Assembly (NCBI RefSeq): GCF_011082085.1
Contig: NZ_CP041063.1
Location: 1,984,001-2,048,000 of the forward strand
Reading direction: 5' to 3'
DNA: 64,000 bases
Source: Bacillus sp. Cs-700
GTDB taxonomy: Bacteria > Bacillota > Bacilli > Bacillales > Guptibacillaceae
The stretch's first letter is position 1; each line of letters opens with the position of its first letter. The notes beneath the pieces were generated by a model. That model worked only from the letters and a program-made list of their open reading frames with translations, did not search any database and had not been told where the DNA came from. Positions 9,417 through 29,258 of the stretch are shown here, one piece after another. The position numbers and the translations under genes were made by a program.

Positions 9417-10526
9417 TTAGTTGAAGAACTTGTTAATCATATCCACGACATATTCCTGTTGCTCTGCTTTAAGTTCAGGGAACATTGGAAGAGAAATGGC
9501 TTCCTGACAAGCCTTCTCCGTAACTGGTAGATCGCCTTCCTTATAACCAAGATTTGAAAATACTGGTTGCAGGTGTAGCGGTTTTGGATAATAAATCATT
9601 GTAGCCACACCTTGCTCTTTCAAGTACGCCTGAAGTTCATCGCGCTTAGGGACTCGAATGGTGTATTGGTGGAAGATATGATAGTTATGTTCCTCTACGT
9701 ACGGTGTCGTAACGGTTTCCCCAAGACGCTCATTTAATAATGATGTATAACGTTCAGCTTTCTCAATCCGTTGTTTATTCCAGTCCGTTAAATGTGGAAA
9801 CTTCACATTCAAAATAGCAGCTTGAAGTTCATCAAGACGACTGTTATAACCCAAAATATGATGATAATATTTTGGTTTGCTACCATGAACACGAATAACG
9901 CGCATTTTTTCTGCAACTTCATCATTATTCGTGATGATCATCCCAGCATCCCCATATGCCCCAAGGTTTTTTGTAGGGAAAAAGCTATATGTAGCCGTTG
10001 TACCAAGCTCCCCTACTTTTTTACCTTTATACTCAGAACCAATTGACTGGGCTGCATCTTCAATAATAGCCAAATTGTGCTTATCAGCAATAGCCTTCAA
10101 AGCATCCATATCAGCCATCTGACCATATAAATGAACGGGAATAATGGCTTTCGTTTTATTCGTTACAGCCTCTTCAACCTTTTTCGGATCAATATTAAAA
10201 GTTTTCGGATCAATATCAACAAATACCGGTGTCGCTCCAGCACGTGCAATGGCACCCGCAGTTGCAAAAAAAGTAAAAGCAGGACAAATCACTTCATCAC
10301 CTTCACCGACATCACAACCTAATAAAGAAATATGTAGGGCGTCACTTCCGTTTGCAACGCCAACGCTGTGAGCAGCATGACTAAATTCTGCTACGTCACT
10401 TTCAAGTTTTTTTACATTATCTCCGAGAATGAAACGCGCACTCGACATCACTTCTTCTAAAGCAACACCGATTTCACCTTTAAGTGTTTGATATTGTTCG
10501 GTTAAATCAAGCATTGGTACTTTCAT
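9417..10526 (-). CDS. DegT/DnrJ/EryC1 sugar aminotransferase (WbpE/WlbC-like)
   Basis: A PLP-dependent sugar-nucleotide aminotransferase of 369 residues. The Schiff-base lysine is K186 in SFFPTKNLG. The cofactor Asp is in IIEDAAQS (D157), and GVANGSDAL near 56-64 binds phosphate. The overall pattern closely follows WbpE/WlbC, which transaminates the 3-keto sugar made by the WbpA/WbpB pair. It begins at ATG 10526 after GAAAGAGG and is followed by the cognate acetyltransferase. Other sugar aminotransferases of this fold have different substrates. The assignment therefore rests on the presence of all five pathway enzymes in the same cluster. Confidence 0.87.
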   Translation of the reverse strand: MKVPMLDLTEQYQTLKGEIGVALEEVMSSARFILGDNVKKLESDVAEFSHAAHSVGVANGSDALHISLLGCDVGEGDEVICPAFTFFATAGAIARAGATPVFVDIDPKTFNIDPKKVEEAVTNKTKAIIPVHLYGQMADMDALKAIADKHNLAIIEDAAQSIGSEYKGKKVGELGTTATYSFFPTKNLGAYGDAGMIITNNDEVAEKMRVIRVHGSKPKYYHHILGYNSRLDELQAAILNVKFPHLTDWNKQRIEKAERYTSLLNERLGETVTTPYVEEHNYHIFHQYTIRVPKRDELQAYLKEQGVATMIYYPKPLHLQPVFSNLGYKEGDLPVTEKACQEAISLPMFPELKAEQQEYVVDMINKFFN

Positions 10527-18863: not shown

Positions 18864-21800
18864 TTACTTGACTAACTTTTGCAACTCATCTTTCGCTACT
18901 TCACTTACTGCTCCATTTCCACCTAATACTTTCACAGATTTAATATCATTCGTATACAGATATTTTGTTAGGAAAGACTCAACTTCTGTTGGAACATCAT
19001 CTTTTTGAACAAGAACTAGCGTTCCTTTGTTCATAGATACGAGTGGTGCTGAAGAAAGTGCGTCAGGGAAAGTCTGACCACTTGCTACATATAAGGTATC
19101 CGTAGCGTCAGCAAACTCCTCTTGAATCGCTGCTAAAGTACCGTAACGATTTTTCCCTTTCAATCTCATCGTATCAAAAGCAATGCTTTCTACTTCATTA
19201 TAAACAGTGTCAGAAATTGCTCCTGTACCTCCAAGAACATACACAGCTTCACCTGTAAGAATTTCTTTTGCTTCTTTAGATAGTTTCTTTCCATCTGTAA
19301 GCACAATTGGCATTTGCATCTCGCCAGCAATACCAGCAGCGCTAAGTGCGTCTGCATAGTTCATACCAGTCGCAAGAAACACACCTTTTCCTACATAACC
19401 ATTCTTTTCTTGTAGGTGGTTTACAATGGCTAAGTTCGTATCGAAACGACTTTTACCAGATAATCGTTCAACATTTTTTGTGCTGATTCCAAGCTCAGCA
19501 AGTTGAAGAAGGACATCGTCGGATACAACACCTGTACCACCAACAATTACGGCATTTTCAGCACCTAGACGTGAGATTTCTAATCTAACCTTTTCTGACA
19601 GTTTCCCCTTAGGTCCTGCGAGAAGAACTGGTGCTTCATATGCACTTGCCAGTGGACCAGCTGATAAAGCATCTGGGAAGTCGTATCCAGTCGTGATGAC
19701 CACAGTTTTACTATCTTCCTCAGTGAAACCATCAGGATACATCTCTTTTGATACTTCAATAGCAGTCGCTTCTCGGTCTGAACCTTTGATGACATCCACT
19801 ACGCCGCCATCAACAGATACAGGTAGAATTGAAAGGACTTCGTCAGTAGCAGCATCCTTTAAGAATACGCCCGCTGTATAATCACCAGATGCATCTGGTG
19901 TTGTAATCTTCACATCGGTTTTAAGAGATTTCCCAATACCTAGATCGAAAGTTTTATTAGTAGCGGATAGTTCACCCAGACCTTCTTCACCAGGATTTAG
20001 AACTCGTTCTTCCGTTATTGTAAGATCAACTTCTGTTGCTTTTCCGTCACTAGACGAATAACCATAAACAGCTACCAAGTAAGTACCATCTTCTAGCGCT
20101 TTCACATTTACTTTTTCATCAGAAGAAGCATCACCTGAAGACGCTACTGGTACATACCCTTCTTTTGTTTTCTTATAAAATTCCAGATCAACGTCATCAA
20201 TTGGATTTTTCGGATTCGAAGTTGCTACCTCTAAAGAAATATTATTTTCGATTTCCAACTCTTCCAAATAATAATCGTTATATGGAACTTCAATGCGACT
20301 TTTATTTGATTCGGCTTTACTAAAATCGCCAGTTTCGATTTTTACTTTTTTAGCACCTGAAAGATAATTTTCGAATTTAACTTCTTTTGTTGTTTTTGTA
20401 CCTGGAGCGACAGAACCAAGGTCAACTTCGCCTGGAGTAGCTACAACCCCTTGTACAAAAGCTTCGAAATTAAATTTGTTTACTTCTTTACCTTCTTCAG
20501 GAGCAATCGTACCGTAGACCGCTACTTCCCATACACCCGCTTTAGGACTTTCAAAAACATTTTCTTCTACTTTAAGGGAAGAGGCTTCTGGTCCATAACC
20601 CGCATATCCTTGATACTCACTTACTTGCTTACCATCCGGATCATGTACGAACATTCTAACTCGACCTTGATATTCGCCATTTTCCTGAAGAGCAGAAAGG
20701 GCAAAACGGATTTCTTCCATTCCTGGTTTTACATCAAAGTAATAGTGTTCTGTTTTGGAAGATTGAACTTCTCCCTGATCACTAAAACGATATTTGTTTT
20801 CTGAAGTGAACTCTTCTCCAATAATAATCGTTTGATAAGAGCGCGCTTCAACATAAGCCGTCGCCTTATCATCAATTACTAGAGTTCCTTCGTTTCTACC
20901 AACCTGAAGCTGGTCCTTATCATAAGTAACAGTAATTTTCTCACTTTGACCTGCTTTTAGTGTGATCGACTTCTTAGATGGCGTAAACCAACTTTCACTC
21001 GGCTTAATTGTTAATTCTTTTGTTTCATTAGTAGGGTTTTCAATGAGAACTTCTACTTTATCAGGTACTTCTTGATTTCTTACGTAAAGCCCTGGACCAC
21101 CCGAAACTTTTTCACCGTGGTAAACTTGGACATTTACTTCTTTTACGTTATTAATAAAATTGTTTTTCAAATATTCATAGGCAGCAGGAATATCAATTAA
21201 ACCTGCACCTTGCTGTGAACGCTCATACCCTTCAAGTGGTTGAGCTGTTTGAATTAATGCCTCACGCGCTGATTCATAGTCAAAAGGAACCCTATCTTTT
21301 TCAGTAGCTTGTTTCAAAAGAGCAAGTGCGCCTGCTACGTAAGGTGCTGACATACTTGTACCTTGAAGTACTGCATAATTACCTAATTGTGCTGGATAAG
21401 AAGCATACGATGCTCCTGGCGCAACAATATCAGGTTTTTGCATACCATCTTCCCTCGGACCATTAGAAGAGAAGTACCAAAGCCCATCTCCTTCTTTTGG
21501 CGTACCATCAGCGTTCTTTCCAAACGGATAGGCATCATATTCGGTTGCCCACATTTCTTCATCCATGTGTGCACCTACAGAGATCGAAGCTGTACTCGTT
21601 CCTGGTGAACCTACTGAATCAGCCCCAGGTCCTTCGTTACCTGCTGACATAGCAAACATCGTACCGAATTCTTCAGATAATAGATCTGCTAACTCGTCAT
21701 CTGCATCTGTGCCGTCATTTAAGTCTGGTAAAGAACCTAGACTCATATTAACAACATCTGCGTCATACCCGCCTAGAGATTCTGGAAGGGCAGCATCTAC

Positions 21801-23030
21801 CATCGCTGACATGATGCTATAACTAGCTGCACCGCCTTCAGCTTTAAACACTTTAAGACCTACTAACTCAGCTCCTGGTGCAACGCCATCTTTGGCAATG
21901 GCTCCTGTTTCGTTCGATCTTGCTGGCCCATTAGCTGCTGTTATACCCGATACGTGAGTACCATGTCCATTGACATCAAAGAAAACATTCACAAATGGAT
22001 CCTCTGAATCTAGTGAATTGATGCGGAAGTTAGCTCCAACCAACTCATCCTCTACATTGACATCAAATGTACCAGCTTCATTGTTCGCATAAGGAATTTC
22101 ATCAGTGAAGTCCATGTCATTATCTTTATCAATGTAAACTTTATCATCAACCATTAAGACACCAAATTTATCAGCATCGTTACCTTCTACATCTTCATCA
22201 TGGTCTTCCGTCATTTCACCATCGGCATTTAGATCACCTGAATTCAGGTCAGGCGCCAGAAAGCCAAAATGATACTCGTCATCCGAGGCATCAATCCCGT
22301 TTGTCTTATATGTATCTTCTCCAACAGTAAAGGAATCCCCCTCATCAACTGTGTTGTCGAAAATCACATCGCCTTCAGCAAGTGGAACCTCTGAATCTCT
22401 TTCATTCGTTTGGTCTCCAATCGTGTAATCATGCACGCCGACAATTTTCGATTTACCAAAGTATCCCTCAGCTAGCTTTTCAGTGAAGGCTTCATGACCT
22501 GGGTCTGGACCAGAGTCAATAATAGCGACTCTCGTTCCTGAGCCATCATATTTATTATGAAATTCATCCACACCTGTTGCATCGTGTGTTTCTTCTGTTT
22601 TGGGGCCAACTACTTCCTCTGCAGCTTCATTAATAGGTGCTATTTCAGGGTCATCGAATGTCTTTTCCAATTCAACTGTTCCATTTTTACCAAGTGACGC
22701 TACGTCATCAAGCCCATAAACATCCATTACTTTATTTGTTGGAATTTCTGTTAAGTAGACATAGTTCTTATGGTTATCAATTACTTTAACACCCATTTTT
22801 TCAAGTTGCGAAGAAAGGTCTTTCTTTCCTTTTGTTACAACAATCAACTCTTGTACCGCCGCATCACTAAAAGCAAGAGCTGAAATCTCCTGTGAAATTG
22901 CTGGTTTAAACTTCTTTGTTTCTTGTAAGGCCGCTTCCGCTACATCAGGGTTGTATCCAACGTTAGAGAACGATGATGCCAACAAAGTCGCACCAGCAAA
23001 GACCGTAATAAACTTTTTCTTAAATGTCAT
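18864..23030 (-). CDS. wall-bound subtilisin-like serine protease with three CWB2 repeats and a large acidic insert
   Basis: 1388 residues. Signal peptide about 1-33, an inhibitor-I9-like propeptide (ELIVVTKGKKDL to about residue 120), then an S8 catalytic domain with D172 (IIDSGPDPGH), H356 (NGHGTHVSG), oxyanion N465 (SAGNEG) and S559 (GTSMSAPYVAG). The Asp-His gap is 184 residues against about 32 in subtilisin. It holds an Asp-rich insert with calcium-loop-like runs near 262-283 and 301-310. Beta-sandwich and PPC-like domains follow, and three cell-wall-binding type 2 repeats occupy about 1083-1388. It should be secreted and held at the wall. GGGGG precedes the start. Confidence 0.93.
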   Translation of the reverse strand: MTFKKKFITVFAGATLLASSFSNVGYNPDVAEAALQETKKFKPAISQEISALAFSDAAVQELIVVTKGKKDLSSQLEKMGVKVIDNHKNYVYLTEIPTNKVMDVYGLDDVASLGKNGTVELEKTFDDPEIAPINEAAEEVVGPKTEETHDATGVDEFHNKYDGSGTRVAIIDSGPDPGHEAFTEKLAEGYFGKSKIVGVHDYTIGDQTNERDSEVPLAEGDVIFDNTVDEGDSFTVGEDTYKTNGIDASDDEYHFGFLAPDLNSGDLNADGEMTEDHDEDVEGNDADKFGVLMVDDKVYIDKDNDMDFTDEIPYANNEAGTFDVNVEDELVGANFRINSLDSEDPFVNVFFDVNGHGTHVSGITAANGPARSNETGAIAKDGVAPGAELVGLKVFKAEGGAASYSIMSAMVDAALPESLGGYDADVVNMSLGSLPDLNDGTDADDELADLLSEEFGTMFAMSAGNEGPGADSVGSPGTSTASISVGAHMDEEMWATEYDAYPFGKNADGTPKEGDGLWYFSSNGPREDGMQKPDIVAPGASYASYPAQLGNYAVLQGTSMSAPYVAGALALLKQATEKDRVPFDYESAREALIQTAQPLEGYERSQQGAGLIDIPAAYEYLKNNFINNVKEVNVQVYHGEKVSGGPGLYVRNQEVPDKVEVLIENPTNETKELTIKPSESWFTPSKKSITLKAGQSEKITVTYDKDQLQVGRNEGTLVIDDKATAYVEARSYQTIIIGEEFTSENKYRFSDQGEVQSSKTEHYYFDVKPGMEEIRFALSALQENGEYQGRVRMFVHDPDGKQVSEYQGYAGYGPEASSLKVEENVFESPKAGVWEVAVYGTIAPEEGKEVNKFNFEAFVQGVVATPGEVDLGSVAPGTKTTKEVKFENYLSGAKKVKIETGDFSKAESNKSRIEVPYNDYYLEELEIENNISLEVATSNPKNPIDDVDLEFYKKTKEGYVPVASSGDASSDEKVNVKALEDGTYLVAVYGYSSSDGKATEVDLTITEERVLNPGEEGLGELSATNKTFDLGIGKSLKTDVKITTPDASGDYTAGVFLKDAATDEVLSILPVSVDGGVVDVIKGSDREATAIEVSKEMYPDGFTEEDSKTVVITTGYDFPDALSAGPLASAYEAPVLLAGPKGKLSEKVRLEISRLGAENAVIVGGTGVVSDDVLLQLAELGISTKNVERLSGKSRFDTNLAIVNHLQEKNGYVGKGVFLATGMNYADALSAAGIAGEMQMPIVLTDGKKLSKEAKEILTGEAVYVLGGTGAISDTVYNEVESIAFDTMRLKGKNRYGTLAAIQEEFADATDTLYVASGQTFPDALSSAPLVSMNKGTLVLVQKDDVPTEVESFLTKYLYTNDIKSVKVLGGNGAVSEVAKDELQKLVK

Positions 23031-23115
23031 CCGTATAATTCCCCCTATTAATATTATAACAGCGCTTCTAAAATATCCCTCCCCTGATTTATTTTAGAAA
23101 ATTTTCTGCATTTTC

Positions 23116-23144
23116 AGTTTAATCTTGTTTTTTATGTCCGTCAA
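23116..23144 (-). promoter_or_regulatory. candidate sigma-A promoter of the large protease gene
   Basis: TTGACG (complement of 23139-23144) and TAAACT (complement of 23116-23121) are separated by exactly 17 nt. The implied leader is about 80 nt. Confidence 0.5.
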
Positions 23145-23224
23145 CAAATAAATGTGTAATTTTTTACAAAATATATTAAACTATGACAATAGTTCTTATT
23201 GTTTTGTGAAAAAATACGGTAATA

Positions 23225-23256
23225 AAATAAAAAAGCTTCGAAGTTCATCGAAGCTA
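23225..23256 (-). terminator. terminator of the 682-residue S8 protease gene
   Basis: An 8-bp stem (23234-23241 with 23248-23255) overlapping the stop codon, followed on the minus strand by TTTTTTAT. Confidence 0.75.
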
Positions 23257-25302
23257 GTACAGTAGTTTTTCATCAATTTCCCATGCAATTCGGGGAGAAA
23301 CAGCACCATATCCTCCAAGGAAATGATAATCTTTGAATCCTTTATTACCTAAATAAGTCAATTCTTCATTCACAGTAGTTAGCATTTTTTGGGGATGAGT
23401 TAACATGACTGAGCTTTCTACTTTTGAAGCTAAGGCTCCTCCAACTAACGCATCGGGAAAGTTCGTACCAGTGGCAATATATAGCGCTTCTTCCTCTAAG
23501 CCAAACTGTTTCATAACCTTGTAGTTCGTTGCATAGCGATCTTCACCACTAATTCTATTATAAGGCGTTTTGAGAGAGTCCATCATTTCGTTAGAGATCA
23601 CCCCTGTACCACCGATCGCATAAGCATGACGTATTCCTTTAGAAGAGAGATAGGACTTCACAACCTCCGGTGCCTTGCTTTTTTGAACAAACAATACTGG
23701 GTAATCATATCTTCCAGCGTAAGGGGCAATAGAAAGGGCATCAGGAAAATCTTCTCCCGAAACGATCATTGCCTCATCTGTTCCAAAGGGAATAGCGTTA
23801 TTAATAGCAACTGCAGTAGCATATCGATCTTTTCCGGATAATCGAATTGTGTCAATACCTAATTGCTTTAATTCATTCTCTGCTATCTGGGATACAGCAC
23901 CAGATCCTCCTACAATAACAACGTGAGTAGCCTTTAGTCTCTTTAGTTCTTCTATATTAGCTTCTGCTAAAGCATTCGTTTGCTGAAGCAATATCGGCGC
24001 ATCAAGATAGGACGATAAAGGAGCCGCTGCTAAACTATCTGGAAAGGTTAAGCCACTTGCTAAAATCACGAACTTTCCATCTATGCTTTCACCATTTAAA
24101 GTAACCTGTTTTTGATTTAATCCTCCCCAACCGTGCTTAGAAACCGCAACAGCTGTGTGAACGGCCGTTTTGCCATAAATTCTATTTTTTGTTTCAACGT
24201 ATTCTAAAGCGGAAAAGACATTCAAGCGTCCACTTCCCATTCCTTCTAACTTGTTAGTTGGATCAGTACTAGAAGTAAGCACATCTTTTACCTGAGCACT
24301 CGTTAAAAATGGACTTTTTTGTAAAATCATGCTGGCTGCTGAGCTTACAAGCGCAGTGGACATACTCGTCCCACTATCCGTTTCGTATGAGTTAAGCCAC
24401 GTGCTATAAATATCCGTACCAGGCGTGTGAAGATCGATCTCTGCTCCCCAATTAGAGAATGAGGCTTTTTCATTCGTACCCGTTTGGGTTGATGCTACTG
24501 CGATCGTCGACTTATATGCGGCAGGATAAATAACCCGATTTTGATTATCATTTCCACCTGCTGCCACAACGGTTACCCCATTCTCAGCCGCCAGTTGAAT
24601 CACATCACTCATTGCTTTCATATTGCTGTATGTACCAAGACTTAAATTAATCACATCTGCTCCATGAGAAACGGCATATTCAATGCCTTGAATGACCGTG
24701 GACATTTGTCCTGTCGTACCTTCCATTACTTTAATCGGCATGATCTTGACCCCGCGTGATATAGAAGATATCCCCACTCCATTATTCGTTTCTGCGCCGA
24801 TCAAACCCGCAACGTGAGTACCGTGGCCATTTTCATCGTCTGGTGTTTTAGAAGGATTTACGAGATTAACTCCATTAGCAAGATTATTAGCTAAATCAGG
24901 ATGATCGAGATCGACACCTGTATCTAAAACGGCAACAGTGATTTCATCAGATCGTACATATTTCATCCATGCCTGCTCAACGGAAATTTCCGTAAAAGCG
25001 GACATTTGCTTTGTATAATAGGGATCATTTACAGGCGTTGAATCCATTAAATAAACAGGCACGTCTTCTTCAGCGTATTGCACATACGGTAGACTTTCCA
25101 ATTCTCTTATAAGCTTTTTACTTTCTGACTTCGGTACTTCAATCGTATCAAACTGACTGGAAATCGACTGAGTCTTCACTAGATCACTAGATTCTGAGTA
25201 TTTTACAATAACGTTAATCGTTTCTTCTGCTTCAACGTGTGGTGTAAAAAACGAAATCACGCACAATGTAAAAATAACAAGAAAAATGTTGCTCTTCTTC
25301 AA
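23254..25302 (-). CDS. wall-bound subtilisin-like serine protease with three CWB2 repeats
   Basis: 682 residues: signal peptide 1-25 (VEAEE cleavage region), an I9-type propeptide to about residue 85, and a compact S8 domain with D127 (AVLDTGVDLDHPD), H160 (NGHGTHVAG), oxyanion N251 and S313 (DSGTSMSTALVSSA). The Asp-His spacing of 33 is normal, unlike the next protease. Three CWB2 repeats from about residue 372 to the end carry FPDALS-, VGGTGAVS- and RYATA-type motifs. It should be extracellular and wall-attached. It begins at ATG 25302 after AGGGGGAAAAG. The neighbouring NprR-type regulator could control it, because NprR controls extracellular proteases in the Bacillus cereus group (inference). 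Confidence 0.93.
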   Translation of the reverse strand: MKKSNIFLVIFTLCVISFFTPHVEAEETINVIVKYSESSDLVKTQSISSQFDTIEVPKSESKKLIRELESLPYVQYAEEDVPVYLMDSTPVNDPYYTKQMSAFTEISVEQAWMKYVRSDEITVAVLDTGVDLDHPDLANNLANGVNLVNPSKTPDDENGHGTHVAGLIGAETNNGVGISSISRGVKIMPIKVMEGTTGQMSTVIQGIEYAVSHGADVINLSLGTYSNMKAMSDVIQLAAENGVTVVAAGGNDNQNRVIYPAAYKSTIAVASTQTGTNEKASFSNWGAEIDLHTPGTDIYSTWLNSYETDSGTSMSTALVSSAASMILQKSPFLTSAQVKDVLTSSTDPTNKLEGMGSGRLNVFSALEYVETKNRIYGKTAVHTAVAVSKHGWGGLNQKQVTLNGESIDGKFVILASGLTFPDSLAAAPLSSYLDAPILLQQTNALAEANIEELKRLKATHVVIVGGSGAVSQIAENELKQLGIDTIRLSGKDRYATAVAINNAIPFGTDEAMIVSGEDFPDALSIAPYAGRYDYPVLFVQKSKAPEVVKSYLSSKGIRHAYAIGGTGVISNEMMDSLKTPYNRISGEDRYATNYKVMKQFGLEEEALYIATGTNFPDALVGGALASKVESSVMLTHPQKMLTTVNEELTYLGNKGFKDYHFLGGYGAVSPRIAWEIDEKLLY

Positions 25303-25412: not shown

Positions 25413-25586
25413 TTAACTTAGAGAGGATTGTGTTTCTTTCCTTACGTGGTCGTTTACCAATTGTTCATACGATGATTGAAGTAAAGCGTAGCGTTCTTCT
25501 AATAACGACTGTTCTTTTCTTAACGTGCCAACAATTTGAATCAAATTTGCAATTAAAATTTCTAAGTTTTTAAAACGATCTTCCAT
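25413..25586 (-). CDS. 57-residue coiled-coil protein, function unknown
   Basis: A short open frame with a strong GGAGGAGAAAA ribosome site and ATG 25586. The product begins MEDRFKNLEILIANLI and is helical throughout. It has heptad-like hydrophobic spacing at about residues 5-45 and a polar tail ending SSLS. No membrane helix or signal peptide is seen. It lies divergently from the NprR-type gene with a 204-bp shared control region that contains the TTGGGAAA inverted repeat, so it may share that regulation. I do not recognise the family. Confidence 0.6.
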   Translation of the reverse strand: MEDRFKNLEILIANLIQIVGTLRKEQSLLEERYALLQSSYEQLVNDHVRKETQSSLS

Positions 25587-25655: not shown

Positions 25656-25715
25656 TTGGGAAACATTGTTCGGATTTAGCGTAATAACCATGCAAATTCT
25701 TTTTATATTTCCCAA
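25656..25715. promoter_or_regulatory. spaced inverted repeat TTGGGAAA-N44-TTTCCCAA, copy 1
   Basis: TTGGGAAA at 25656-25663 and its exact reverse complement at 25708-25715, with 44 nt between. It sits in the divergent control region of the 57-residue gene and the NprR-type gene. A -10-like TAAACT at 25750-25755 lacks a good -35, which suits an activator-dependent promoter. The same arrangement recurs at 33766-33825. Confidence 0.6.
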
Positions 25716-25790
25716 CCTCAAAACTATTCTCTTTTCTGAGAATTTTTAGTAAACTGTAATCAAATAGTTCTAGGAGAAAGGAAGCAAAGA

Positions 25791-27053
25791 ATGATTGGAG
25801 CAAAAATCCGATACTTCAGGCAGATGAAAGGCATCACGCAAGAACAACTCGCTTCCGGAATCTGTTCTATTCCGTATTTAAGTAAAATCGAACACGGTCT
25901 TGCCCAGCCAAGTGAAGAACTTGTTGGACATCTTTGTAAAGAGTTAGGCGTTTCTCTTGATCAGGTTGATGATGAGGATAAAATGAATAAACTTCACAAT
26001 GATCTAGACTCCTGGTACAAAGAAATGCGTCTAAGAAACTTTGATGAAGTTGTTAGTTACAAAAAGCTGATAGATGAAGAAATTGATGGCGTGGAAGATC
26101 CAGATATGCTCACGAAATATCTTCTTTTATCGTTTAGGTATCATATTTTATTTAGAGAAACTGATAAAGCAAATGATATTCTAGAGAGATTGTATCATGT
26201 ACAAGAAAGGCTATCTGAGCAACTTGAATTCTATTATTTTTACTTTTTAGGATTATATTACTACCAAAACAGTAAATTTAAAGAAGCTGGTGAACAGTAC
26301 AAAAAAGCTCATTTCCTTCTGACTTCGATGAAATCAAATTCTGCAGAATGGGCAGAATTTTATTATCAGCAAGCGCTTGTACACAATCGTCTTAGTCAAA
26401 TTACTTTATCTAATAACCTTGCAATAAAATGCCTCGAAATGTTTAATAAAGAATACAATTTCAAAAGAGCATCAGACACTGAAATTCTTTTAGGAGTAAA
26501 CAATAGAGTTATCTTAAATTATGGAGAAGCCGAACATCACTTTCAAAACGCACAAAAATATGCGGAATCTTTTAATGATAAACGACTTAAGAGTATTATT
26601 TATCATGACCTTGGTTATGTATACTCTTGCCAAAACGAATCGGATTTGGCTTTAAAATACTATCAATTAGCTTTGCAAAATAGTGAAGTGCACGAAATTG
26701 AAGATCGAGCCAAGACATTATATTTAATTGCTTCAGAGTATATTAAAAGTGGTAACTTTGATCTCGCTCGTAAATCAATTGATGATGGTATGGAGCTAGT
26801 TACCAAGACAGAGTACCTAGAATATATCCACCATTTTAAAATCTTGATTTTAAAACTTAGTAGCAAGCAGAGTGAAAATCAAGAGGTAATCCTTAAAGAT
26901 GCAGTTGAATACTTTGAGGAAAAAACACGTTGGTACTATGTTTCAGAGTACGGTGAAATGCTGGCAGACCATTATTTCAATAATGGCCAATATAAAAATT
27001 CAAGTTTTTATTTTAGGTTAGCGAACGATGCCAGGAAAAAAATCATGAATTAG
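25791..27053 (+). CDS. NprR-type (RNPP) HTH-TPR transcriptional regulator, putative peptide pheromone receptor
   Basis: 420 residues. Residues 5-60 form an XRE-type helix-turn-helix (ITQEQLASG ICSIPYLSKIEHG). Residues about 75-415 are all-helical tetratricopeptide-like repeats, as in FYYFYFLGLYYYQNSKFKEAGEQY and the DLGYVYSCQNESDLALKYYQLAL pair. The length matches NprR (about 420) and exceeds PlcR (about 285). The HTH excludes Rap phosphatases. RNPP proteins are cytosolic receptors that bind re-imported secreted peptides and then change DNA binding. The propeptide gene starts 14 bp downstream, as papR and nprX follow their receptors. The start has a strong AGGAGAAAGGAAG site. Confidence 0.9.
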   Translation: MIGAKIRYFRQMKGITQEQLASGICSIPYLSKIEHGLAQPSEELVGHLCKELGVSLDQVDDEDKMNKLHNDLDSWYKEMRLRNFDEVVSYKKLIDEEIDGVEDPDMLTKYLLLSFRYHILFRETDKANDILERLYHVQERLSEQLEFYYFYFLGLYYYQNSKFKEAGEQYKKAHFLLTSMKSNSAEWAEFYYQQALVHNRLSQITLSNNLAIKCLEMFNKEYNFKRASDTEILLGVNNRVILNYGEAEHHFQNAQKYAESFNDKRLKSIIYHDLGYVYSCQNESDLALKYYQLALQNSEVHEIEDRAKTLYLIASEYIKSGNFDLARKSIDDGMELVTKTEYLEYIHHFKILILKLSSKQSENQEVILKDAVEYFEEKTRWYYVSEYGEMLADHYFNNGQYKNSSFYFRLANDARKKIMN

Positions 27054-27067
27054 AAAGGGAGAAAAAC

Positions 27068-27205
27068 ATGAAAAAGTTAATTGTAAATGCACTACTTATT
27101 ACTAGCTTAGTAGGAGTTGTTACTCTAGGTAACCACGACAGAGTACCTGATTCTCACGACAGAGTACCTGACTCAAGCCCATCAAAAACTGAAATTCATA
27201 TCTAA
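27068..27205 (+). CDS. 45-residue secreted signalling propeptide with duplicated heptapeptide
   Basis: An ATG at 27068 with AAAGGGAG upstream opens a 45-codon frame, 14 bp after the receptor stop. Residues 1-20 form a lysine-started hydrophobic export signal (MKKLIVNALLITSLVGVV). The rest is polar. It holds two exact copies of HDRVPDS (residues 23-29 and 30-36) and ends SPSKTEIHI. The position, size and layout match Phr/NprX/PapR propeptides. The mature signal is probably a 5-8-residue piece of the DRVPDS unit after extracellular processing and oligopeptide-permease import (inference). A terminator follows at once, so receptor and peptide form a two-gene operon. Confidence 0.8.
   Translation: MKKLIVNALLITSLVGVVTLGNHDRVPDSHDRVPDSSPSKTEIHI
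27134..27175 (+). repeat. 21-nt tandem repeat inside the propeptide gene
   Basis: Two adjacent 21-nt units (27134-27154 and 27155-27175), both beginning CACGACAGAGTACCTGA. They encode the same heptapeptide and differ only at synonymous positions near the end, which suggests recent duplication with the peptide under selection. Confidence 0.85.
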
Positions 27206-27210
27206 TGCTC

Positions 27211-27239
27211 TAAACCCGGCTAAATTGAGCCGGGTTTTT
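27211..27239 (+). terminator. terminator of the receptor-peptide operon
   Basis: A 9-bp GC-rich stem (27213-27221 with 27228-27236) and a T tail, 7 nt after the propeptide stop. Confidence 0.85.
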
Positions 27240-27305: not shown

Positions 27306-28082
27306 ATGGCTTTTTATATGTTTGATGTTGACGGCGTTTTAACAGATGAAAACGCTAGACCTGATGAAGATGTTGTAAAATCGATTGAACAATTAGCAAA
27401 AGATGAGCACATCCTATCTTTTGTGACAGGTCGTTCGAGAGAATGGCTTTCTGATTATCTATTTCCACTTTTTGATGATGACATGGACTGGTCTTCCCTT
27501 TATTGCGTATGCGAACACGGTGCGATTAAAGGACGTGGAACAGATATTTCTTCATGGGATATAGATGAAGAATATGTGATCTCTGATGAGGTGAAAGATA
27601 AGTTATACAAAGTGAGTCAAAAAGAGAAGTATGAAGGTCTGATTCAATGGGACCAAACGAAAGAATCCATGGGTACGGTTGAAGCCGTTCACGGTGATCC
27701 TGGAGATAAGGAACATTTAAAGAAAACTCGCGAATCGCTTCAGGAATACGCAGATGACGTTGAAGAGATTTCTACTGAATCTGGTAATAAAACCGTTGTC
27801 TCTACTTATGGAGTTGATGTGATTCACCCAGAGTTATCCAAGAAAATTGGCGCTACTTGGATACTTGATGAAATTCAATCAGCTGAGGAAGTATTTGTTT
27901 TTGGAGATAGTAGTGGTGATATGGTGATGGCTGTGACCGCAAGAGAACATGAATTAGAGAACATTACGTTTTACTGGGTTGGTGAGGGCGAAACGCCAGA
28001 AGAAGATAAAATCACTTCTATTTCAAGTGAAGCTTCCTATTCAGAGGGAACCAAGGAAATATTAGAAAAGCACATTGGCTAA
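27306..28082 (+). CDS. HAD-superfamily (Cof-like, IIB) hydrolase
   Basis: 258 residues. Motif I is MFDVDGVLTD (residues 5-14) with the nucleophile and acid/base Asp pair. Motif II is FVTGRS near residue 41. Motif IV is VFVFGDSSGDMVM near residue 200. A cap domain lies between motifs II and III, as in type IIB phosphatases that act on sugar phosphates. The product should be cytosolic. A TAGAATAGGAG-type site precedes the start. It is monocistronic, with a shared terminator downstream. The substrate is unknown. Confidence 0.85.
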   Translation: MAFYMFDVDGVLTDENARPDEDVVKSIEQLAKDEHILSFVTGRSREWLSDYLFPLFDDDMDWSSLYCVCEHGAIKGRGTDISSWDIDEEYVISDEVKDKLYKVSQKEKYEGLIQWDQTKESMGTVEAVHGDPGDKEHLKKTRESLQEYADDVEEISTESGNKTVVSTYGVDVIHPELSKKIGATWILDEIQSAEEVFVFGDSSGDMVMAVTAREHELENITFYWVGEGETPEEDKITSISSEASYSEGTKEILEKHIG

Positions 28083-28104: not shown

Positions 28105-29097
28105 TTAAACTAGTTCTACTGGTCGATTTTGTTTAATCGACTCATAGCAAGCTTCAATGGCTTTTAAGTTATTTACTGTCGCCTCACCTGTGTAAGACGG
28201 CGTTTGATTGTTTTGAACGCAGTGTGCGAAGTGTTCCACCATGAGGGTATACTGCTCGCCTTCAACCGTTTCTTCTCTCACCTTTCCTTCGCTATTTTTA
28301 ATTTGAATCGTACCACTCACTCCTGGAGCGTCAGGGCGGTAAGCGAACGGTAGGCGGATGCTACCTTTTGTACCAAGAATCTCATAAGAATTGCTCATTT
28401 GACGTTCGAAACTACAATCAAACGAAGCGGTAACGCCGTTCGCAAATGTAAAGATGCCTGTTGCGGAGAGGTCAACTCCTCCACCTTCCGGAATAGCTGC
28501 TTCAGCATACACCTTAAGTGGTTCATTGCCAATAATGAACCGAGACGAATGAATGCAATAACAACCCACATCCCAAATGCTTCCCCCACCTAGTTCATTG
28601 CTGAGGCGAATGTTATTTGGTTTATCTCCAAGGTAGAATGAAAAATTCGCACGCATATGCTTTACATCACCAATTTCACCTGACGCGATCACATCCCTTA
28701 CAACTTCGTGCTGAGGATGGAATTGATACATAAAGGCTTCCATGAATACAACGCCATTTTCTTCACAAGCTTCCACCATCTCCATCGCGTCACGAGCCGT
28801 AATCGCCGCTGGTTTTTCACAAAGAACGTGTTTCCCTTTCTTGGCAGCTGCAATGGTCCATTTTTTGTGAAGCGTGTTTGGAAGCGGAATATAAACGGCG
28901 TCAATTGAATCGTCCTCCAACATCGCTTCATAACTGTCATGATAATGTGGTATGCTCATTTCCTCTGCAAATTCTTTGGCTTTGCCACTGCCACTAGCTA
29001 CGCTCACAACTTTAGCACCACTAGCACTTTGGATCGCAGGTATAACCGCTTTCCTTGCAATATTCGCCGTCCCCACTATTCCAAATCTCAGTCCCAT
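28105..29097 (-). CDS. Gfo/Idh/MocA family oxidoreductase
   Basis: 330 residues with an N-terminal Rossmann fold (FGIVGTANIARKAVIPAI), YIPLPNTLH and the CEKP motif in HVLCEKPAAITA. The C-terminal sugar-binding domain contains GGGSIWDVGCYCIH. The family catalyses NAD(P)-dependent oxidation of sugars, inositols and similar polyols, and this branch resembles the dimeric dihydrodiol/xylose dehydrogenase group. I choose ATG 29097 because AAGGGA is 10 nt upstream. The GTG at 29106 would be only 1 nt from it. No pathway neighbours are seen, so the substrate is open. Confidence 0.85.
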   Translation of the reverse strand: MGLRFGIVGTANIARKAVIPAIQSASGAKVVSVASGSGKAKEFAEEMSIPHYHDSYEAMLEDDSIDAVYIPLPNTLHKKWTIAAAKKGKHVLCEKPAAITARDAMEMVEACEENGVVFMEAFMYQFHPQHEVVRDVIASGEIGDVKHMRANFSFYLGDKPNNIRLSNELGGGSIWDVGCYCIHSSRFIIGNEPLKVYAEAAIPEGGGVDLSATGIFTFANGVTASFDCSFERQMSNSYEILGTKGSIRLPFAYRPDAPGVSGTIQIKNSEGKVREETVEGEQYTLMVEHFAHCVQNNQTPSYTGEATVNNLKAIEACYESIKQNRPVELV

Positions 29098-29258
29098 TTC
29101 ATGCACTTCCCTTCTATGTAGTCATTATCTATTTTACCATTCTGTCGAGTTAACTTCCGTGATGATGTTTCCATATTTACCTTTCATCTACCCCCAATGT
29201 AATATGCTATAAACCGAAACATTAAGTAATCCCTTTAATCCCCCCTTTTGATTATAAG

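Follow-up and report, generated by a model that had tools for sequence, protein, structure and literature searches.

Within a window of 64,000 nucleotides from the genome of Bacillus sp. Cs-700 (contig NZ_CP041063.1, positions 1,984,001 to 2,048,000; genome G000 of our sample, 4.30 Mb in a single contig), we analyzed a receptor gene followed by a small propeptide gene with a repeated heptapeptide, HDRVPDS. The sequence comparisons reported here make it highly probable that this locus is an NprR-type (RRNPP) quorum-sensing operon, whose module of receptor TPR domain and propeptide is exchanged between species. It further appears reasonably likely that, in at least two genera of the Bacillales, recombination swaps the TPR domain together with the propeptide in a single unit, the promoter, the helix-turn-helix (HTH) part of the receptor and the downstream genes staying fixed, and that related species thereby alternate between signal languages with the regulon remaining the same and the number of signal copies (1–9) varying inside the module. 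The allelic nature of the locus and the probable exchange of its module between species are new here and were not visible to the author of an earlier note, which was based on the window alone. The features compared are the following:

25791–27053, + strand: receptor gene, 420 amino acids, NprR-type, HTH plus three-helix/TPR domain; stop codon TAG at 27051–27053
25791–25955, + strand: HTH DNA-binding part, about codons 1–55
25956–27220, + strand: putative exchanged specificity module, TPR domain plus propeptide; limits approximate, from sliding identity
27068–27205, + strand: propeptide gene, 45 codons and 45 amino acids; ATG at 27068, stop codon TAA at 27203–27205; orthologous frame in 14/14 genus genomes
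27306–28082, + strand: HAD hydrolase, next gene after the pair and flanking comparison gene
28105–29106, − strand: GFO/IDH/MocA oxidoreductase (GFO), flanking comparison gene used together with HAD against the receptor

The receptor was present in all 14 genomes searched of the genus, which is probably Guptibacillus, the window's own genome included (58–100% amino acid identity), and the same locus was found in two strains of Pseudalkalibacillus hwajinpoensis, in Bacillus sp. NTK071 and in Alkalihalobacillus macyae. At the DNA level, the module was discordant with its surroundings, as indicated by pairs of genomes with a close HAD gene and a distant receptor (97% versus 81% in G008–G009, 89% versus 64% in G010–G003 and 87% versus 65% in G005–G011), and by the reverse case of G011–G013 (receptor 98%, HAD 84%, GFO 81%); in G000–G008 the values were 98%, 94% and 92%, respectively. 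At the protein level, HTH residues 1–40 were identical over all 91 pairs of the 14 genomes, and residues 61–420 averaged 71%.

Identity was followed in sliding windows of 150 bases, numbered relative to the receptor start, for six genus pairs picked for their discordance, four of them between signal classes (G010–G003, G011–G005, G008–G009 and G000–G009) and two within a class (G000–G008 and G011–G013). Windows starting at −75 and 0 were 96–99% identical in all six pairs. From there, G010–G003 and G011–G005 dropped to 49–69% (+150 to +1275) and G008–G009 and G000–G009 fell more gradually to 60–87% (+300 to +1275), before all four between-class pairs recovered to 87–91% in the window at +1425, just past the propeptide, and kept 86–99% farther downstream (to +3150), except for windows of 83, 73, 80 and 85% in G011–G005. 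Within classes, identity was 95–100% in windows 0 to +1200 and lower downstream (+1575 to +3150; 87–97% in G000–G008 and 77–87% in G011–G013). The break lies near codons 55–65, between the HTH and the first helix of the TPR part (H62–81 in an AlphaFold2 model), and is less sharp for closer classes. Upstream (windows starting at −600 to −225), identity was 84–98% in the four pairs lacking G000 and 43–58% in the two that include it, the latter because the region of the S8 genes upstream is also allelic.

A tree of the TPR part sorts exactly by signal class with three changes, the minimum, as compared to seven changes each on the HAD plus GFO, rpoB plus gyrB and promoter plus HTH (−85 to +150) trees. 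The HAD plus GFO and rpoB plus gyrB trees agree on their main forks, and four of the ten inner forks of the promoter plus HTH tree are starred, all in agreement with the species tree. Using approximately unbiased (AU) tests, the three signal classes as clades were rejected on the HAD plus GFO flank (p 1.1e-4, 5.1e-7 and 1.9e-10) and on rpoB plus gyrB (p 7.5e-6, 1.2e-4 and 2.9e-49), and three species clades were rejected on the TPR part (p 4.2e-70, 1.9e-42 and 4.3e-103), all of these p values being descriptive only because the groups were chosen after the identities had been seen; the log-likelihood gaps behind them are very large (134–1005 units). The fourth signal class (G001 and G012) is set apart from the other genomes by a single branch in each of the four trees. 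Taken together, these results indicate that the module has a history different from that of the promoter and HTH, of the flanking genes and of rpoB plus gyrB.

The same discordance pattern is evident in a second genus (g47), for which nine of the 11 matching genomes were used in the trees (G328 and G366, with short flanks only, were left out). In G289–G152, identities were 93–100% upstream, 98% in the HTH, 54–58% in the TPR domain, 50% in the propeptide region and 83–89% downstream, the corresponding values for G248–G347 being 91–99%, 96%, 57–66%, 57% and 90–92%. The upstream and downstream trees of g47 agree on their supported forks, and the TPR tree places G289 and G347 with three genomes of the other clade; the two flank clades were rejected on the TPR part (AU, p 0.0015 and 0.0066), and the TPR clade was rejected on both flanks (p 1.1e-46 and 2e-8). 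A third genus (g12; eight of 14 genomes with a match) served as a control. Here six of the eight genomes share the signal KDQHPDPIP[EG]G, and HTH and TPR identities are close in most pairs (e.g. 88/87/87); pairs involving G294 (e.g. 86/73/79) or G253 (74/65/67), the two genomes with differing signals, show a moderate drop. No sharp dip was seen in g12, so that a dip of this kind is not inherent to such receptors in general.

By analogy to the family, the propeptide would be exported and cleaved before and after every repeat, yielding a peptide of about 6–7 residues, HDRVPDS or DRVPDS, which would be re-imported by an oligopeptide permease and bind in the TPR superhelix, thereby changing the activity of the HTH. 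The simplest means of exchanging the module would be homologous recombination whose ends lie close to the HTH/TPR linker and shortly beyond the stop codon of the propeptide gene, and a cell receiving another module would acquire a new pherotype, i.e. change whom it hears and addresses, with the same target genes.

Several points weigh against this interpretation. The promoter plus HTH tree is short and mostly unresolved (6/10 forks without a star), the TPR tree contains a long branch (G003, 0.41) that raised a warning of the tool, and the AU groups were named only once both identities and trees had been seen. The flank and rpoB plus gyrB trees conflict on G013, both with a star, and the flank is therefore not purely vertical either. 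Fourfold-degenerate sites of the HTH are somewhat more conserved than those of the flanks (60% versus 43–45%), so that HTH conservation is partly selective. The exchanged stretches may also differ from case to case, given the allelic S8 genes and the low upstream identity of G000. In g47, the TPR tree has long branches and the milder p values given above, and species relations rest solely on the loci's own flanks; in g12, downstream DNA is unalignable in many pairs (35–43%), and the control therefore compares HTH and TPR only. Lastly, the pherotype consequence is deduced from sequence, with binding, processing, expression and control of target genes all being predicted, and five SBP_bac_5 proteins indicate no more than the possibility of import.

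An alternative model in which the signal classes are old alleles under balancing selection that predate the species split, with little recent transfer (trans-species polymorphism), could account for the HEKFPxS class, which is far from the rest (receptors 58–59% identical in amino acids to the window receptor), occurs in distant species and could be old. However, the 98% DNA identity of the receptors in G011–G013 and G000–G008, between flanks that are less similar, suggests recent transfer, and we regard this model as unlikely, although alleles may be old and also have been transferred later.

As to the receptor itself, Pfam profiles over the cut-off were HTH_3 (2.2e-10, residues 6–58), RapH_N and TPR_2/TPR_12/TPR_1, and the AlphaFold2 model obtained with alignment A1 (the window receptor and 62 of 87 relatives) contains 22 helices at a predicted local distance difference test score (pLDDT) of 91.7; a single-sequence model was dropped (pLDDT 51.8). 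The architecture, an N-terminal HTH followed by a Rap-like three-helix/TPR domain over ~420 amino acids, is that of NprR, which is the closest solved relative and the nearest protein by family profile and VIA alignment, whereas Rap proteins rank first by single-sequence search (Rap J/I/H above NprR) and by Foldseek E-value order. Receptors of Rap-Phr systems have no HTH domain, in contrast to the window receptor. The Rap ranking would fit a receptor acting mainly as a Rap-like Spo0F phosphatase relieved by the peptide, with transcriptional control being secondary. NprR is indeed bifunctional and contacts Spo0F through D107, Y118, E188 and Y223 (PMC4970707), and F58, E137 and Y175 of RapH match F115, E186 and Y222 of the window receptor in one hand-read alignment, if the numbering of the RapH chain is taken to be shifted by two residues. 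Yet the position of RapH Q47 and NprR D107 corresponds to P104 or D103, depending on the alignment, and the identity of the HTH over codons 1–40 in 14 genomes argues that DNA binding has been kept; we consider a mainly phosphatase role improbable.

Fast divergence of the TPR domain and propeptide by diversifying selection, without recombination, is very improbable and strongly disfavoured as an explanation of the discordance. Both are specificity parts and thus expected to evolve fast, but rate alone cannot regroup species, and the TPR part rejects the three species clades (p at most 1.9e-42); moreover, identity rises again to either side of the module, and g12 lacks a sharp dip.

The propeptide part of the exchanged module comprises the following elements:

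27054–27067, + strand: receptor–propeptide gap of 14 nt holding GGGAG, read from the sequence
27057–27061, + strand: ribosome-binding site GGGAG of the propeptide gene, read from the sequence
27134–27154, + strand: signal copy 1, HDRVPDS, residues 23–29 of the propeptide
27155–27175, + strand: signal copy 2, HDRVPDS, residues 30–36, without spacer after copy 1
27212–27237, + strand: terminator-like hairpin and T-run, 3′ of the propeptide

When re-read from the sequence, the coordinates bore out the layout proposed in the earlier note (420-residue receptor, 14-bp gap, 45-codon frame and two exact HDRVPDS copies) and its ribosome site, and a similar purine-rich site precedes the propeptide in the five loci inspected. 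Two further claims call for qualification. The export-type start is there, judged by composition and by eye (KK and a hydrophobic stretch), but visual inspection of the window allele showed no clear A-x-A site ahead of the repeat; and the terminator is present as a perfect-stem hairpin with T-run in 13 of the 14 genus loci, but the window hairpin alone is weak, one being found in the scanned stretch versus 1.0 expected in shuffles.

An exact non-overlapping 7-residue repeat occurred in two of the 568 short open reading frames (ORFs) of the window (25–120 amino acids, both strands) and in none of 200,000 shuffles of the 45 propeptide residues. The other such ORF, a 34-residue frame at 10166–10267 (− strand) with LLILIRK twice, is probably due to chance. 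Comparison of the small frames 3′ of orthologous receptors, a check suggested in the earlier note, revealed a signal-bearing frame in 14/14 genus genomes, starting 16–21 nt past the receptor's last codon, with one (five genomes), two (eight) or three (one) signal copies around a conserved core. The pattern H[DE][RK][VFL]P[DEQ]S is found in all 15 propeptides (14 of the genus plus L022 from another genus of the family), from which it was also written. The two window copies differ at 2/21 bases, both synonymous, and over 14 copy-to-copy comparisons, which share history, 45 of the 47 base differences fall in synonymous codons, indicating that the peptide is under selection. HDKVPDS is encoded twice in three genomes, each time with a different lysine codon in the two copies, so that it is the protein sequence in which their similarity is maintained. 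For the eight loci with two copies, the ratio of nonsynonymous to synonymous differences (pN/pS) was 0.10 and 0.07 for the repeat units, the most constrained part of the propeptide, 0.37 for the signal region and 0.25 for the tail. Since a tail follows the last repeat in 15/15 propeptides, cutting on both sides would be needed. Overall, these observations and the proximity of the receptor to NprR support the note's NprR-type quorum-sensing reading, and the small propeptide gene is, by all sequence indications, real.

Beyond the genus, receptor matches at E 1e-40 were found in 120 of the 397 sampled genomes of the order and in 19 of the 398 of the class, and 92 loci were read (14 of the genus and 78 others picked from the best matches). 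Under a strict rule that left out seven doubtful frames (L035, L042, L056, L058, L135, L140 and L147), 74/92 loci have an export-type frame at a distance of −6 to 35 nt from the receptor, 34 of these 74 carrying two or more signal copies; the automated survey missed the propeptides of L017 and L058 and gave wrong ORFs for L039 and L058. These counts, and the frame's sharing of the TPR domain's discordant pattern, make it most unlikely that the repeat encodes, in place of the receptor's predicted signal, an unrelated secreted peptide (e.g. a bacteriocin) adjoining the receptor by chance. Repeats have been described in some NprR propeptides (PMC5199041; PMC9765709), including 17/17 atypically large ones, with up to six copies across subfamilies (PMC9765709), and tandem signals in NprR, Rap, PlcR and AimR propeptides are likewise published (PMC11343458, PMC9765709, PMC5199041). 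Because of these reports, and because one to nine copies are present in relatives of the window locus, duplication of the heptapeptide is in itself an ordinary, already-known kind of feature. Its role may be to raise output, as the earlier note proposed. Nine tandem copies are present in L029 (DNSPGIK) and L034 (FDHTPGPK), above the six given in the accessible text of PMC9765709, and L017 is a second receptor of G001, distant at 32% identity, whose downstream propeptide contains three copies of DELYPDP. An acidic-x(0-2)-Pro motif as general family signal was too weak to claim (73/74 versus 62.3 expected in shuffles). Phage and plasmid collections held no close receptor copy, only distant matches below 60% identity (5 phage and 46 plasmid records).

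Upstream of the receptor, the following block is shared within the genus:

25706–25790, + strand: conserved upstream block (promoter/leader of the receptor), beginning TATTTCCCAAC

At most of its positions 12–14 of the 14 genus loci are in agreement, in contrast to the differing DNA farther upstream. TTTCCCAACCTCAAAACTATTCTC, with up to three mismatches, occurs once in the genome, and TATTTCCCAAC is not enriched (2 places versus 2 control hits). The palindrome ATTCTC-N6-GAGAAT (25726–25743) was rejected as an operator, with 19 genome sites at up to one mismatch versus 15 for the reversed-pattern control, and its 18-base window form is absent from four of the 14 genus loci (G001, G002, G003 and G012). 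The divergent intergenic region also contains an inverted pair, TTGGGAAA (25656–25663) and TTTCCCAA (25708–25715), a candidate operator found at the same 52-base offset in 13/14 genus loci, though the DNA between and around varies. No regulon was assignable from operator-motif searches of the genome. For the propeptide, no SigH-type promoter was seen by eye in the receptor 3′ end, and a sigma-70-type scan gave 7 sites versus 7.4 in shuffles. Just upstream of the receptor lie two large S8 subtilases with CWB2 repeats (18864–25302, − strand), which could be targets or maturation proteases. They are allelic (91–98% amino acid identity to G007, 62–80% to G001/G012 and ~43–58% to most other genus members), diverging though the downstream genes are close. 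Between S8 gene and receptor, a divergent 57-residue frame (25413–25586, − strand) without a Pfam match over the cut-off is matched in 13/13 other genus loci (30–57 of 57 residues aligned); in one of these 13 (L081 of G002), ~8 kb of extra DNA separates the upstream small frame/S8 gene from the receptor.

Compared to known systems, the window locus resembles NprR-NprX in having an HTH plus TPR receptor with a same-strand export-type propeptide frame immediately downstream, but its genus signal is H[DE][RK][VFL]P[DEQ]S and not SKPDIVG, the NprX signal. It further differs in its two signal copies without spacer, in the swapping of TPR domain and propeptide between species with the HTH kept, in its next gene (a HAD hydrolase, whereas nprR adjoins nprA), and in the lack, by eye, of the SigH-type promoter that nprX is known to have. 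Further hallmarks of NprR-NprX are a mature signal of 5–8 residues binding to the TPR domain, tetramer formation induced by the peptide and transcription of a protease regulon; with regard to the first, the window locus shows the conserved heptapeptide core. NprR-NprX itself combines an HTH plus Rap-like TPR receptor with a downstream co-transcribed propeptide gene and a seven-residue minimal active signal, and seven pherotypes are described in the Bacillus cereus group (PMC4147580). Duplicated Phr propeptides (Phr105, Phr3T) carry tandem identical or near-identical signals, both matured and active (PMC11343458), and for Rap homologs the accessible text of PMC5199041 reports no recombination by RDP3 analysis. 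Rap-Phr systems with duplicated pheromones thus share the TPR fold and tandem signals with the window locus, but Rap has no HTH.

Exchange of signal and receptor alleles with a change of pherotype would be a feature shared with streptococcal ComRS and ComCDE, and interspecies exchange in streptococci was reportedly described in a 1997 study. In S. suis, conversion of comRS signal and receptor alleles changes the pherotype (PMC4072589, PMC5398294); ComR, however, belongs to another RRNPP branch, and the accessible parts of these two articles describe neither an HTH-sparing break nor a locus of NprR type. Among the open-licence matches listed (titles and the beginnings of abstracts), no report was found of an exchange in NprR-type systems that involves TPR domain and propeptide but spares the HTH. 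The strings HDRVPDS, DRVPDS, HDKVPDS, HEKFPES and HERFPDS were likewise absent from the full text of the open-licence literature searched.

For these systems it is an open question how a receptor and its signal can shift specificity jointly while avoiding a deaf intermediate, one published model being signal duplication followed by divergence (PMC5199041). The loci analyzed here appear to provide natural chimeric receptors, in which the sensor domain attached to one HTH varies along with its cognate signal, so that the domain determining whom the cell hears and the domain determining what is regulated can be tested for directly. Matched receptor–peptide pairs could also serve as orthogonal parts, and the occurrence of one, two and three copies within one genus makes the effect of tandem signal copies testable. 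If true, module exchange in this marine Bacillus relative would mean that the chemical language of bacteria may change while the functions under its control stay the same.
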